DNA from: Prauserella isguenensis
GTDB lineage: Bacteria > Actinomycetota > Actinomycetes > Mycobacteriales > Pseudonocardiaceae
Direction: 5' to 3'
NCBI RefSeq assembly: GCF_014191605.1
Contig: NZ_JACHWU010000002.1
Coordinates: forward strand, 620,001 to 684,000
DNA length: 64,000 nucleotides
Shown here: positions 10,629 to 15,292 of the stretch, one piece after another
Numbering within the stretch: the first letter of the stretch is position 1
How the letters are laid out: every line of letters begins with the position of its first letter
Translations under genes and position numbers: made by a program
Notes under the pieces: generated by a model
Seen by the model: only the letters and a program-made list of their open reading frames with translations
Told to the model about the DNA's origin: nothing
Database searches by the model: none

Positions 10629-12053
10629 TCAGGCGTGGTCGTCCTCACCGAGCCGGTGGACCCGGATCAGGTTGGTCGACCCGACGGTGCCCGGCGGCGA
10701 GCCGGCGACGATGACCACCAGGTCGCCCTGCTGGTACCGGCCCGTCTCGATCATGGCGCGGTCGCACTGCTGGATCATCCGGTCGGTCGAATCGGCCTTC
10801 GGCACGAGCTGGGTGTGGGTGCCCCACGTCAGCGCGAGCTGGCTGCGCACGCTCTCCAACGGCGTGAACGCCAGCAGCGGCAACCGGGTGTGCAACCGGG
10901 CCAGCCTCCGCATCGTGTCGCCGGACTGGGTGAACGCCACCAGTGCCTTCGCGTTGAGCCGCTCGCCGATGTCGCGCGCCGCGTACGAGATCACGCCCCG
11001 CTTGGTGCGCGGCACGTGCGACAGCGGCGGTACCGCGGGCAGATCGGATTCGACGGCCTCGACGATCCGCGACATCGTCTGCACCGTCTCGATCGGGTAG
11101 CGGCCCACGCTCGTCTCCCCCGAGAGCATCACCGCGTCCGCGCCGTCAAGCACCGCGTTCGCGACGTCGGACGCCTCGGCGCGGGTCGGCCGGGAGTTGC
11201 CGATCATGGAGTCGAGCATCTGCGTGGCGACGATGACCGGCTTGGCGTTCTCCCGCGCGATCTGGATCGCCCGCTTCTGCACCAGCGGAACCTGCTCGAG
11301 CGGCAGCTCGACGCCGAGGTCGCCGCGGGCGACCATCAGGCCGTCGAAGGCCAGCACGACGGCTTCGAGGTTGTAGACGGCCTCGGGCTTCTCCAGCTTG
11401 GCGATCACCGGCACGCGACCCTTGCCGACACGGTCCATCACCTGGTGGACGACGTCGATGTCGGCGGGCGAACGCACGAACGACAGCGCGACGAAGTCGA
11501 CGCCGAGTTCCAGCGCGAACTCGAGGTCCTCGACGTCCTTGTCGGACAGCGCGGGCACCGACACGTCCATACCCGGCAGCGACACGCCCTTGTTGTTACT
11601 GACCGTGCCGCCTTCGGTGACGGTGCAGACCACGTCCGCCCCGTCGACCTCCTCGACCGTCAGCCCGACCTTGCCGTCGTCGACCAGTAGCCGGTCGCCC
11701 TGCTTGGCGTCCTCGGCCAGGCCCTTGTACGTGGTGGACACGCGGTCGTGGGTGCCGACCACGTCCTCCACGGTGATGCGCACCGTGTCCCCGGTGCGCC
11801 ACTCGACGGGACCGCTGGCGAACGTGCCGAGCCGGATCTTGGGGCCCTGCAGGTCGGCGAGGATGCCGACGGCCCGGCCCGTCTCGGCCGCGGCGGCACG
11901 GACGAGGTCGTACACCTGCCTGTGGTCGTCATGGTCGCCGTGACTGAAGTTCATCCGGGCGACGTCCATGCCCGATTCGACGAGGTCGTGGACCTTCTCC
12001 TTCGTCGCCGTCGCGGGGCCCATGGTGCATACGATCTTCGCTCGTCGGCTCAC
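10629..12053 (-). CDS. pyk: pyruvate kinase
   Basis: 474 residues, the usual bacterial length. It opens with KIVCTMGPAT and continues with MNFSHGDHDDH and LADLQGPKIRLG. The lysine/metal motif region IAKLEKPEAV and MVARGDLGVE follow, then MLSGETSVGRYP near the active-site lid. It converts phosphoenolpyruvate and ADP to pyruvate and ATP at the end of glycolysis. It starts at a GTG 8 nt after a TACGCT -10 box, suggesting a leaderless mRNA. The PPi-dependent phosphofructokinase gene lies 2 kb away. Confidence 0.96.
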   Translation of the reverse strand: MSRRAKIVCTMGPATATKEKVHDLVESGMDVARMNFSHGDHDDHRQVYDLVRAAAAETGRAVGILADLQGPKIRLGTFASGPVEWRTGDTVRITVEDVVGTHDRVSTTYKGLAEDAKQGDRLLVDDGKVGLTVEEVDGADVVCTVTEGGTVSNNKGVSLPGMDVSVPALSDKDVEDLEFALELGVDFVALSFVRSPADIDVVHQVMDRVGKGRVPVIAKLEKPEAVYNLEAVVLAFDGLMVARGDLGVELPLEQVPLVQKRAIQIARENAKPVIVATQMLDSMIGNSRPTRAEASDVANAVLDGADAVMLSGETSVGRYPIETVQTMSRIVEAVESDLPAVPPLSHVPRTKRGVISYAARDIGERLNAKALVAFTQSGDTMRRLARLHTRLPLLAFTPLESVRSQLALTWGTHTQLVPKADSTDRMIQQCDRAMIETGRYQQGDLVVIVAGSPPGTVGSTNLIRVHRLGEDDHA

Positions 12054-12835: not shown

Positions 12836-13861
12836 TCAGCCGAAGAGGACCTCCGCCTCGGCGTACCGCTCGGGCGGCACCGTCTTCAGCTCGGCGGTCG
12901 CCTCGGCCAGGGGAACGCGGACGATGTCGGTGCCGCGCAGCGCCGTCATCGTCCCGAAGTCGCCGTCGGCGACCGCGGCCACGGCGTGCAGACCGAACCG
13001 GGTGGCCAGCACGCGGTCGTAGGCGGTCGGCGTGCCGCCGCGCTGGGTGTGACCGAGGACGACCGCGCGGGACTCGTTGCCGGTGCGCCGGGCGAGCTCG
13101 TCGGCCAACCAGTGACCCACACCGCCCAGCCGCACGTGGCCGAACGCGTCCTTCTCGCCGGTCTGCAGTACCTCGTCGCCGTCGTCGGGCTGCGCCCCCT
13201 CGGCCACGACGACGATCGGTGCGCGGTCGCGTTCGAACCCTGCCCGCACCCAGCCGACGACCTGCTCGACCGCGAACGGCCGCTCCGGCACGAGAATGAC
13301 ACTCGCCCCGCCCGCCAGGCCGGAGTGGAGCGCGAGCCAGCCGGCGTGCCTGCCCATCACCTCGACGACGAGTGCTCGGTGGTGCGACTCGGCCGTGGTG
13401 CGGAGCCGGTCGATCGCCTCGGTGGCGATGTGCACGGCGGTGTCGAAGCCGAAGGTGTAGTCGGTGGCGCCGAGGTCGTTGTCGATCGTCTTCGGGACGC
13501 CGACGACGTTCACTCCGTCCCGCCACAGTCGCTCCGCGACGCCGAGCGTGTCCTCGCCGCCGATGGCGACCAGCGCGTCGATCCCTTCCGCCGCCAGGAC
13601 CTTCGCGACCTGTTCGGCGCCTCCCTCCTCGGCGTACGGGTTGGTGCGTGAGCTGCCGAGGATCGTGCCGCCACGGGTGAGGATCGGCTCGACGTCGCCG
13701 GGGCCGAGCCGGCGCAGCGATCCGGTGAGCAGGCCGCGCCAGCCGTCGCGGAACCCGACGACCTCCCAGCCGTACTCCCCGGCGCCCTTCATCGTCACCG
13801 CGCGGATCACCGCGTTGAGCCCGGGACAGTCGCCGCCTCCGGTCAGGACCCCCACCCGCAT
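12836..13861 (-). CDS. pfp: pyrophosphate-dependent phosphofructokinase
   Basis: 341 residues, PfkA fold: LTGGGDCPGLNAVIR at the start, TIDND catalytic loop, MGRHAGWLAL. Two positions decide the phosphoryl donor. Where ATP enzymes have GGDG(104) and Gly124, this protein has GGED with Asp104, and VPKTIDND with Lys124. That Asp/Lys pair is the signature of PPi-dependent enzymes such as that of Amycolatopsis methanolica. It therefore probably phosphorylates fructose 6-phosphate reversibly with PPi. The ATG at 13861 gives the standard N-terminus. It is divergent from the DAHP-synthase leader. Confidence 0.9.
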   Translation of the reverse strand: MRVGVLTGGGDCPGLNAVIRAVTMKGAGEYGWEVVGFRDGWRGLLTGSLRRLGPGDVEPILTRGGTILGSSRTNPYAEEGGAEQVAKVLAAEGIDALVAIGGEDTLGVAERLWRDGVNVVGVPKTIDNDLGATDYTFGFDTAVHIATEAIDRLRTTAESHHRALVVEVMGRHAGWLALHSGLAGGASVILVPERPFAVEQVVGWVRAGFERDRAPIVVVAEGAQPDDGDEVLQTGEKDAFGHVRLGGVGHWLADELARRTGNESRAVVLGHTQRGGTPTAYDRVLATRFGLHAVAAVADGDFGTMTALRGTDIVRVPLAEATAELKTVPPERYAEAEVLFG

Positions 13862-14010
13862 TCGGCTCCACCCTCCGTGGTCATCCATCGCCCTGAGCAC
13901 CGAGGATAACCGCGCGTCACCGGGTCGGCGCAGCGCGAGACCGTGACCTCCGGCAACCGGTTCGACGTAGACATAGGTCACTGCACCGGTGGAGCGAGGT
14001 GAGCCTCTGC

Positions 14011-14016
14011 TACGGT
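14011..14016 (+). promoter_or_regulatory. -10 box TACGGT before the DAHP-synthase leader
   Basis: TACGGT ends 7 nt before the ATG of the leader peptide. No Shine-Dalgarno sequence precedes that ATG. The spacing predicts that transcription begins at the leader ATG itself, giving a leaderless leader peptide. Confidence 0.5.
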
Positions 14017-14023
14017 CCAGGGC

Positions 14024-14089
14024 ATGCAGCGCTATTACTGGTTTACCTGGCCGGCCCGTAGTGGGCCGGTCGGCGTGAACCTGCGCTGA
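14024..14089 (+). CDS. aromatic-rich leader peptide of DAHP synthase
   Basis: A 21-codon ORF beginning Met-Gln-Arg-Tyr-Tyr-Trp-Phe-Thr-Trp-Pro and ending in TGA. Five of residues 4-9 are aromatic (YYWF-W), the products of the pathway that the downstream gene starts. TTT and TAT, rare codons in DNA of this composition, are used. The ORF is followed by two hairpins before the DAHP-synthase start at 14165. This is the arrangement of ribosome-mediated attenuation: scarcity of charged Tyr, Trp or Phe tRNA would stall the ribosome and change the downstream fold. Confidence 0.8.
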   Translation: MQRYYWFTWPARSGPVGVNLR

Positions 14090-14125
14090 CCACATCCACT
14101 TCGAGCCGGACGTCAAGCCGGCTCG
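14051..14125 (+). promoter_or_regulatory. attenuator-like hairpins before DAHP synthase
   Basis: Hairpin A: CCGGCCC (14051-14057) with GGGCCGG (14063-14069), inside the leader ORF just after the aromatic codons. Hairpin B: CGAGCCGG (14102-14109) with CCGGCTCG (14118-14125), loop of 8. The GGGCCGG strand of A could also pair with CCGGC of B, so alternative folds exist. Hairpin B ends 39 nt before the aro start and does not cover its ribosome site, which favours transcriptional rather than translational control. No energy was computed. Confidence 0.65.
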
Positions 14126-14164
14126 GTGGTGCCCGGGGCGGCTTGCGGAAAGGAAGTCACCCCG

Positions 14165-15292
14165 ATGACCACTCTGCCGACCACGGCATCCCCCGATCCC
14201 GCGGCGACGGGCACTGCCGCGGCCTCGCACACCGGGATCCCGCTGGACGACCACCGCATCACCCACGTCAGCCCGTTGATGTCGCCCGCCCTGCTCCGCC
14301 AGGAACATCCCGTCGACGACACCGTCGCCCGCACGGTCACCGCGGGCCGGGACGCCGCCGTCGACATTCTGGCAGGCCGTGACGACCGCCTGCTGGTCGT
14401 CGCCGGCCCCTGCTCGGTCCACGACGCCGAGGCCGCGCTCGACTACGCCCGGAAACTGGCCGCCCACGCCGAGAAGGTCCGCGGCGAGCTGCACATCGTG
14501 ATGCGCGTGTACTTCGAGAAGCCCCGCACCACGCTCGGGTGGAAGGGCCTGATCAACGACCCCGATCTCGACGGCGGCTTCGCGGTCAACAAGGGCCTGC
14601 GTCTCGCGCGCCAGTTGCTGCTCGACGTCTCTGCGCTCGGCCTGCCGGTCGGCTGCGAGTTCCTCGACCCGATCATTCCGCAGTACATCGCCGACGTCGT
14701 GACGTGGGGCTCCATCGGTGCGCGCACCGCGGCCAGTCAGGTGCACCGCCAGCTGTGCAGCGGCCTGTCGATGCCGGTGGGCATCAAGAACTCCACCGAC
14801 GGCGACGTGCAGGTCGCCGTCGACGCCACACGCGCGGCTGCGGCGAGCCACGTCTTCCCCGGTATCACCACCGACGGCGTGTCCGCTCTCCTGACCACCG
14901 CCGGAAACGAGGACTGCCACGTCATCCTCCGCGGCGGCAGCGCGGGCCCGAACCACGACGCCGACACGGTTGCGGACACGCTCGCACGACTGCGCAAGGC
15001 GGGGCTGCCCGAACGTCTCGTCGTCGACGCCAGCCACGGCAACAGCGGTAAGGACCACGTGCGCCAGGCCGGTGTCGTGGCCGAGCTGGCCGAGCGCATC
15101 GGCGCGGGCGAGCCCGGCATCTCCGGGCTGATGGTGGAGAGCTTCCTGGCCGACGGCAGGCAGGACCTCACCCTCGGGCGCGCGGCCGACCTCGACTACG
15201 GACGCAGCATCACCGACGCGTGCCTGGACTGGACCACGACGGCGTCGCTGCTCGACGACCTCGCCGCGGCCGTCCGCGCCCGCCGGGGCTGA
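14165..15292 (+). CDS. 3-deoxy-7-phosphoheptulonate synthase, type I (AroF/G/H class)
   Basis: 375 residues. Type I motifs: VVAGPCSVHDAEAALDYA, MRVYFEKPRTTLGWKGLINDP, GCEFLDP, GARTAASQVHR, PVGIKNSTDGD, VDASHGNSGKD. It condenses PEP with erythrose 4-phosphate, the first step of aromatic amino-acid synthesis. The ATG at 14165 is chosen because AAGGAAG lies 8 nt upstream. In M. tuberculosis the gene beside the Rv2179c homologue is the unrelated type II enzyme, so the class differs here. Expression is probably attenuated by the upstream leader peptide. Confidence 0.94.
   Translation: MTTLPTTASPDPAATGTAAASHTGIPLDDHRITHVSPLMSPALLRQEHPVDDTVARTVTAGRDAAVDILAGRDDRLLVVAGPCSVHDAEAALDYARKLAAHAEKVRGELHIVMRVYFEKPRTTLGWKGLINDPDLDGGFAVNKGLRLARQLLLDVSALGLPVGCEFLDPIIPQYIADVVTWGSIGARTAASQVHRQLCSGLSMPVGIKNSTDGDVQVAVDATRAAAASHVFPGITTDGVSALLTTAGNEDCHVILRGGSAGPNHDADTVADTLARLRKAGLPERLVVDASHGNSGKDHVRQAGVVAELAERIGAGEPGISGLMVESFLADGRQDLTLGRAADLDYGRSITDACLDWTTTASLLDDLAAAVRARRG

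Follow-up and report, generated by a model that had tools for sequence, protein, structure and literature searches.

A conserved aromatic leader peptide before a type I DAHP synthase gene of Prauserella isguenensis: a candidate AroR-type attenuator with a putative translational output

In the trp attenuator of Escherichia coli, a stalled ribosome chooses between RNA folds. The attenuators of Corynebacterium glutamicum, including AroR, were reportedly called leaderless by Neshat and colleagues in 2014. AroR itself, an attenuator with a leader peptide that precedes C. glutamicum aroF (cg1129), was reported in 2013–2014 (PMC4046766; review PMC11802643) and is reported to respond to Phe and not to Tyr (PMC11802643). 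A survey published in 2005 on the amino acid genes of actinobacteria gives no conserved RNA structures before phenylalanine or tyrosine operons; it describes the LEU element before actinobacterial leuA, which has a leader peptide, alternative pairings, no terminator, and a proposed output at the SD box, with which its leucine codons pair in a pseudoknot; and it proposes Rho for the terminator-less cys leaders of Mycobacterium (PMC1262725). Mycobacterial leaderless polycysteine ORFs before cys genes are cited, in a further paper, as sensing an amino acid and controlling translation (PMC13236596), and another describes the uORFC-13-1 motif before aroF of Acholeplasma, a short ORF with Phe codon(s) accompanied by an RBS and a terminator (PMC8632094). 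Our literature search, which covered few subscription papers and judged papers by title, the start of the abstract, or selected passages, found none on aroF leaders in actinobacteria outside Corynebacterium.

Here, we analyzed a leader before the aroF gene of Prauserella isguenensis in a window of 64,000 nucleotides, by which we mean the whole stretch of DNA that was examined and to which all positions refer. We take this leader to be a real, conserved attenuator of a kind already known from C. glutamicum. Like AroR, it has a short leader peptide, rich in aromatic residues, immediately upstream of a DAHP synthase gene aroF, here of type I. AroR controls transcription by a terminator; no U-run terminator was found in the leader region of the window, and we therefore file this leader as a variant of AroR and not as a plain member. 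AroR is reported to respond to Phe, whereas Tyr and Trp are the predicted signals of the leader in the window. The LEU element is alike in the general traits listed above, but its pairing of the codon run with the SD box is uncoupled in the aroF leaders compared. The polycysteine ORFs resemble the presumed leaderless, amino acid-sensing design with putative translational control, and differ in the amino acid and in the genes; the Acholeplasma motif, from a different phylum, is a likeness that implies no kinship. As in the E. coli trp attenuator, a ribosome stall would pick the RNA fold, although the switch pairing here joins strand 1 with strand 3 (A:C) and no terminator follows. A preliminary description of this DNA, made from its letters, had suggested a distinct variant with a leaderless leader for three amino acids. 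An aroF leader attenuator as such was already known as AroR, and the variant proposed here lies in the output, which appears to differ.

The aroF leader and its occurrence in relatives

The ORF of 21 codons with Tyr-Tyr-Trp-Phe-Thr-Trp near its start, the 75 nt between its stop and a DAHP synthase gene, and the -10 box 7 nt before its ATG, all given in the preliminary description, were confirmed in the sequence (Table 1). The ORF runs from ATG to TGA on the plus strand and encodes MQRYYWFTWPARSGPVGVNLR; the product of the gene, 375 aa long, matched the type I DAHP synthase models TIGR00034 and NF009395. We scanned the window for short ORFs (8–40 codons, ATG or GTG starts), and the leader alone among 786 had at least five aromatic residues in six codons; each of 20 Markov-1 shuffles yielded 0 such ORFs. 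The 150 nt from the leader ATG fold at -85.9 kcal/mol versus a mean of -60.1 kcal/mol for 200 dinucleotide shuffles (z -6.45). A consensus scan of 13880–14400 found no intrinsic terminator and no promoter, the promoter scan requiring a -35 box and so being blind to leaderless actinobacterial promoters. Rfam families gave 0 matches at gathering score between 9000 and 20000, and a genome search for TGGTTTN6CCGGCCC, which finds close copies only, found it once, at the leader, with no close second copy.

Table 1. Features of the aroF leader region, in window positions
Feature	Position	Strand	Evidence
-10-like box TACGGT	14011–14016	+	Sequence; 7 nt upstream of leader ATG
Leader ORF MQRYYWFTWPARSGPVGVNLR, presumed leaderless	14024–14089	+	Sequence; short-ORF scan; leader match at 104/110 same-family loci
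Sensor codons 4–9, Tyr Tyr Trp Phe Thr Trp	14033–14050	+	Sequence; short-ORF scan
Strand A (pairs with B or C)	14051–14057	+	A:B and A:C coupling, p 0.0005 each
Strand B (hairpin 1 with A)	14063–14069	+	Coupling test; fold
Pre-C and strand C (with A and its loop, or C with D)	14095–14109	+	Coupling; folding
CAAGCCG, 5' part of D, E-pairing	14114–14120	+	D:E coupling, p 0.0005; 119/165 cells paired versus 96 shuffled
Strand D (hairpin 2 with C)	14118–14125	+	C:D nearly invariant, p 0.77; coupled in terminator-type relatives, p 0.0002
Hairpin 3 (E:F), CGGGG/CCCCG and GGCUU/AAGUC	14134–14164	+	E:F coupling, p 0.0005; fold; 3' end abuts ATG
Strand E, CGGCUUG (with D or F)	14139–14145	+	Coupling; D:E pair counts
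aroF ribosome-binding site GGAAAGGAAG	14147–14156		In loop and 3' arm of hairpin 3
Type I DAHP synthase gene (aroF-type)	14165–15292	+	TIGR00034, E 3.8e-144; NF009395, E 1e-144

Divergent to aroF, on the minus strand, lie a gene at 12836–13861, which we take by eye to be a phosphofructokinase gene, and a further gene at 10629–12053, presumably for pyruvate kinase on the same kind of label; glycolysis genes, so labeled, flank the DAHP synthase promoter region on the side away from aroF. Besides aroF, the genome encodes a class II DAHP synthase, and C. glutamicum, included as a control, gave a class II match too. No aromatic ORF with a TAnnnT box was found in the 600 nt upstream of class II genes (8 loci of 9 fetched), that of this genome included.

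Conservation in relatives, which the preliminary description had named as a check, was borne out within the family and beyond it. Of 297 same-family genomes searched, 169 had an aroF match at E ≤ 1e-80, and the 110 loci that we examined came from the higher-scoring matches (30, the window's included, plus 80), with some in the same score range left out and few of the weakest taken. A leader with a TAnnnT box was present at 104 of the 110, the window's own counted. At two of the remaining six (L091 and L143), a leader-like frame is present and the usual start is missing. The other four (L118, L126, L127, and L156, from genomes G091, G063, G232, and G196) all belong to genus g26 and have an otherwise orthologous aroF without a recognizable leader; this loss could serve as a natural control. 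All seven same-genus genomes carry the leader, including G095, which the aroF search had missed and in which the contig ends just inside aroF.

At the level of the order, 298 genomes gave aroF matches in 169, and 31 of the 45 loci examined had the leader. The 14 without it were L208 and L209 (family f8), all 8 examined of family f16, additional copies in multi-match genomes (L233, L249, and L250), and a distant single copy (L251). Among 80 loci with organism names, the leader was found at 21, all actinobacterial: Amycolatopsis, Pseudonocardia, Actinomycetospora, Rhodococcus, Antrihabitans, Mycobacterium, Mycolicibacterium, Williamsia, Dietzia, Micromonospora, Paractinoplanes, Glycomyces, and Kribbella. 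It was not found in this named set at Nocardiopsis, two Streptosporangiales-type MAGs, or a Bifidobacteriaceae MAG. Two order-level loci of family f8 (L215 and L216), from small genomes (2.4 and 2.7 Mb) and probably from Corynebacterium, have the aromatic run WRFYF in the leader before aroF, in keeping with the Phe-Tyr-Phe that AroR is reported to have; unlike the window's clade, which is without a terminator and has the E:F hairpin, they carry a terminator hairpin.

Short ORFs packed with aromatic residues were also seen up to 500 nt upstream of proteobacterial aroF genes and of one in an Anaerolineae MAG (loci L030, L034, L036, L052, L054, L055, L056, L061, L065, L069, L070, L071, L078, and L081; also L063), for example MSAKFYFYFFWYLRPLADREG in Burkholderia and MITVATSYFWYFSYDSSLAAGGSRSI in Bradyrhizobium. 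The range of aromatic leaders before aroF may therefore be much wider than the actinobacteria.

A scan of 236 loci, some of them the same place under two ids, gave 157 leaders with a TAnnnT box and 129 distinct DNAs, with L049 dropped as a false leader. Tyr, Trp, and Phe all occur within residues 2–16 in 124 of the 129, and the start codon is GTG in 92 and ATG in 37, with an SD-like motif upstream in two. This set was picked partly by its TAnnnT box; in 160 loci picked by peptide motif alone, the box stands 6–7 nt before the nearest start in 134, as compared to 1.2% of random positions, and the 26 without a fitting box include some proteobacterial loci and many with another in-frame upstream start that fits. 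On these sequence grounds we presume the leader to be leaderless, with the transcript starting at or next to its ATG. Codon usage in the 129 leaders runs to TTT (134 versus 69 TTC) and TAT (104 versus 31 TAC), codons that are rare in six genes of the window (TTT 0/49, TAT 2/39); the stretch concerned in the window's leader is 14033–14044. The preference may serve to delay the ribosome during decoding or to limit pairing of the sensor region.

Alternative RNA pairings and the effect of a stalled ribosome

Both stems of the preliminary description, of 7 bp (CCGGCCC of strand A with GGGCCGG of strand B) and of 8 bp (CGAGCCGG of strand C, 14102–14109, with CCGGCTCG of strand D), are present in the sequence. 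The second has no U-run and does not qualify as an intrinsic terminator in the window. A better output candidate is a third hairpin, missed in the first reading, that surrounds the ribosome-binding site of aroF (region F).

We measured coupling between strands by comparing the duplex energy of native partners with that of partners swapped between species, an alignment-free test. The test set was 55 terminator-less leaders less than 93% alike, out of 92 with a located aroF start (25 more were without one); it was edited by hand to include L085 and L159 and to exclude L023, L027, L031, L215, L216, and L240. A:B, A:C (A and its loop against pre-C), D:E, and E:F were coupled (p 0.0005 each), as were the sensor codons with B (p 0.0035). 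The results support alternative pairings, A:B against A:C in the leader and D:E against E:F at the aroF ribosome-binding site; the intervening C:D is almost invariant and so gave no coupling signal. As controls, the pairs A:E, B:D, C:E, codons:F, and A:F were all uncoupled. A stem between the leader start and stop was also considered as a part of the switch and rejected (p 0.97).

The four couplings were retained when we thinned the set to 34 and to 15 sequences; with 5 very different sequences, A:B and A:C were retained and D:E and E:F lost significance. Three pairs of D:E vary, and these were standard in 119 of 165 cells versus 96 in shuffles (p 0.0002), or in 54 of 90 versus 47 when counted on distinct combinations (p 0.023). 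All three are formed in 27 of the 55 sequences, two in 14, and fewer in 14. Folding of the E:F region relative to shuffles was modest (mean z -1.08; z < -2 in 17 of 55).

We modeled a stalled ribosome by keeping bases unpaired to 15 nt past the first base of the P-site codon. For a window transcript ending before D, the probability of the A:C core was 0.00 in free RNA, 0.85 with the ribosome at Tyr5, 0.71 at Trp6, 0.24 at Phe7, and 0.01 at the stop codon. The corresponding means for the 55 leaders were 0.51, 0.83, 0.69, 0.16, and 0.12, and A:C exceeded 0.5 in 34, 55, 54, 0, and 6 of them, respectively. Free RNA therefore already favors A:C in 34 of 55 relatives, and a Trp6 stall raised A:C in 26 and lowered it in 26 (p 0.056). 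In this model, Tyr and Trp are predicted to be the main signals in this species, because the only Phe codon, codon 7, is too close to strand A for the A:C fold. The peptide does hold all three aromatic residues, but the earlier claim that it senses all three is not matched by the low A:C value at Phe7. For leaders with Tyr-Phe-Trp-Phe, which are common, the model would predict a response to Phe as well.

In full-length leaders, a Tyr stall increased the predicted openness of the ribosome-binding site in 25 of 55 and decreased it in 2 (p 3e-6); a Trp stall increased it in 18 and decreased it in 4; and a ribosome at the stop codon left it unchanged. A Phe stall also increased it (up in 14, down in 6; p 0.005) even though A:C falls, indicating that the A:C chain is not the whole story. 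In the window's own full-length leader, the shut fold was best in every state, with no inversion at equilibrium, and predicted openness stayed at 0.5; a stall narrowed the lead of the shut fold over A:C plus D:E from 18.8 kcal/mol to 4.9 (Tyr5), 7.9 (Trp6), or 11.4 (Phe7). In the same comparison among relatives, L082, L083, L087, and G095 count, and L084–L086 were excluded because the D:E constraint had not been applied. Folding of both states, another check proposed at the outset, thus gave the A:C switch in transcripts ending before D and no flip of the window's full-length leader, and the switch would have to be set during transcription.

Proposed mechanism and alternatives

A conserved ORF with codons for the pathway products stands before a biosynthetic gene, as in leader peptide attenuators, and an alternative hairpin, coupled as E:F and predicted by folding, covers the ribosome-binding site, as in translation attenuators. 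We regard a conserved leader peptide sensor as well supported by the comparison of relatives, in which the leader, the promoter spacing, and the A:B, A:C, D:E, and E:F couplings are all seen. We lean, on balance, toward an AroR-type, ribosome-mediated attenuator with a translational output at the aroF start. The ribosome-mediated attenuation of the preliminary description is retained in its conserved aromatic leader and coupled strands, with the putative output now placed at a hairpin that it had not listed.

The transcript would start at or beside the leader ATG. When Tyr- or Trp-tRNA is scarce, the ribosome would pause at codons 4–6 and mask bases of the lower stem of hairpin 1, and strand A, just ahead of the paused ribosome, would pair with C instead of B. 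With C occupied, D would be free for E, leaving the aroF ribosome-binding site open. With an ample supply of aromatic amino acids, translation of the leader would proceed to the stop codon and the ribosome would depart, A:B and C:D would form, and E would then pair with F, shutting the aroF start in hairpin 3. The sign of the modeled response, with a stall opening aroF, is right for a biosynthetic gene.

A less likely arrangement keeps the same sensor and places Rho-dependent termination between the leader stop and aroF, with the hairpins governing access of Rho. The lack of a U-run terminator in the window and the Rho proposal for mycobacterial cys leaders would suit it, but the spacer is G+C-rich and strongly folded, and the E:F hairpin over the ribosome-binding site, with its coupling to D, would be left unexplained.

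We also considered a LEU-like arrangement, in which A, along with the run of aromatic codons, is paired directly with E and the ribosome-binding site until a stalled ribosome frees the site. Such pairing appears in the minimum-energy folds of L088 and L104, has its precedent in leuA, and would account for the increase in openness at all stall positions; however, native partners were no better than swapped ones (A:E, p 0.91; codons:F, p 0.75; codons plus A against E plus F, p 0.58), and we dropped this candidate as improbable. We hold it just as doubtful that hairpin 2 terminates transcription in the ordinary way without a good U-run: terminator-type relatives do have their terminator at the corresponding place, between C and D, but no U-run is present there in the window, and even in 27 of those relatives none of the strands tested was coupled with the 5' arm of the terminator. 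Arrest of the ribosome by the peptide itself, through its sequence or a bound aromatic ligand, seems very improbable: the PAR.G residues conserved beyond the aromatic run in near relatives speak for it, but they are the codons of A and B, and more distant relatives have other tails (EAPGGA, ELALEE) and keep A:C.

Terminator-type relatives and the history of the leader

Many relatives have a true terminator in the leader, whereas the window's clade is without one. Among 27 relatives of the terminator type, coupling was seen for A:C, C:D, and the terminator stem (p 0.0002 each) and not for A:B (p 0.23). A classical antiterminator was considered for these relatives and rejected on the terminator 5' arm result given above. 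Several of them (L015, L217, L236, L238, and others) have a long, coupled A:C ending at most a few nt before the terminator stem, and the terminator forms in each masked fold, among the folds listed. Three loci (L163, L184, and L187) have a long C–D loop with a hairpin and no detected U-run, and look like intermediates.

Rhodococcus and Antrihabitans have terminator-less leaders, and a tree of 78 AroF proteins groups them within the window-family clade on starred branches; Mycobacterium, Williamsia, and Dietzia, whose leaders are of the terminator type, are placed separately. Leader type tracks the gene, as would be expected had the two been transferred as a unit. Since terminator-type leaders occur in more families, we infer that the terminator was probably lost in the window's clade. 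It is likely that the output moved from termination to translation.

We offer the following history tentatively, as a possible course of events to which we give somewhat less credence than to the mechanism itself. A single aromatic leader, in which a conserved switch pairs strand 1 with strand 3 (A:C), would span the order. Most lineages beyond the window's clade would have an intrinsic terminator in the loop between C and D; in the clade itself that terminator would have been lost from the loop, D:E and E:F would connect the switch with the start codon of aroF, and gene and leader would have passed together into Rhodococcus. If true, the ribosome sensor would have stayed as it was and its output would have changed from transcription to translation.

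These data extend one documented case, AroR, to a family that spans several actinobacterial families and has a testable switch. The natural series of leaders, with a terminator in the loop, a hairpin without a U-run, or a short loop, lends itself to the question of how the output of an attenuator can change. Aromatic amino acids and many actinobacterial products alike are reached through DAHP synthase, and its control therefore matters for production strains.
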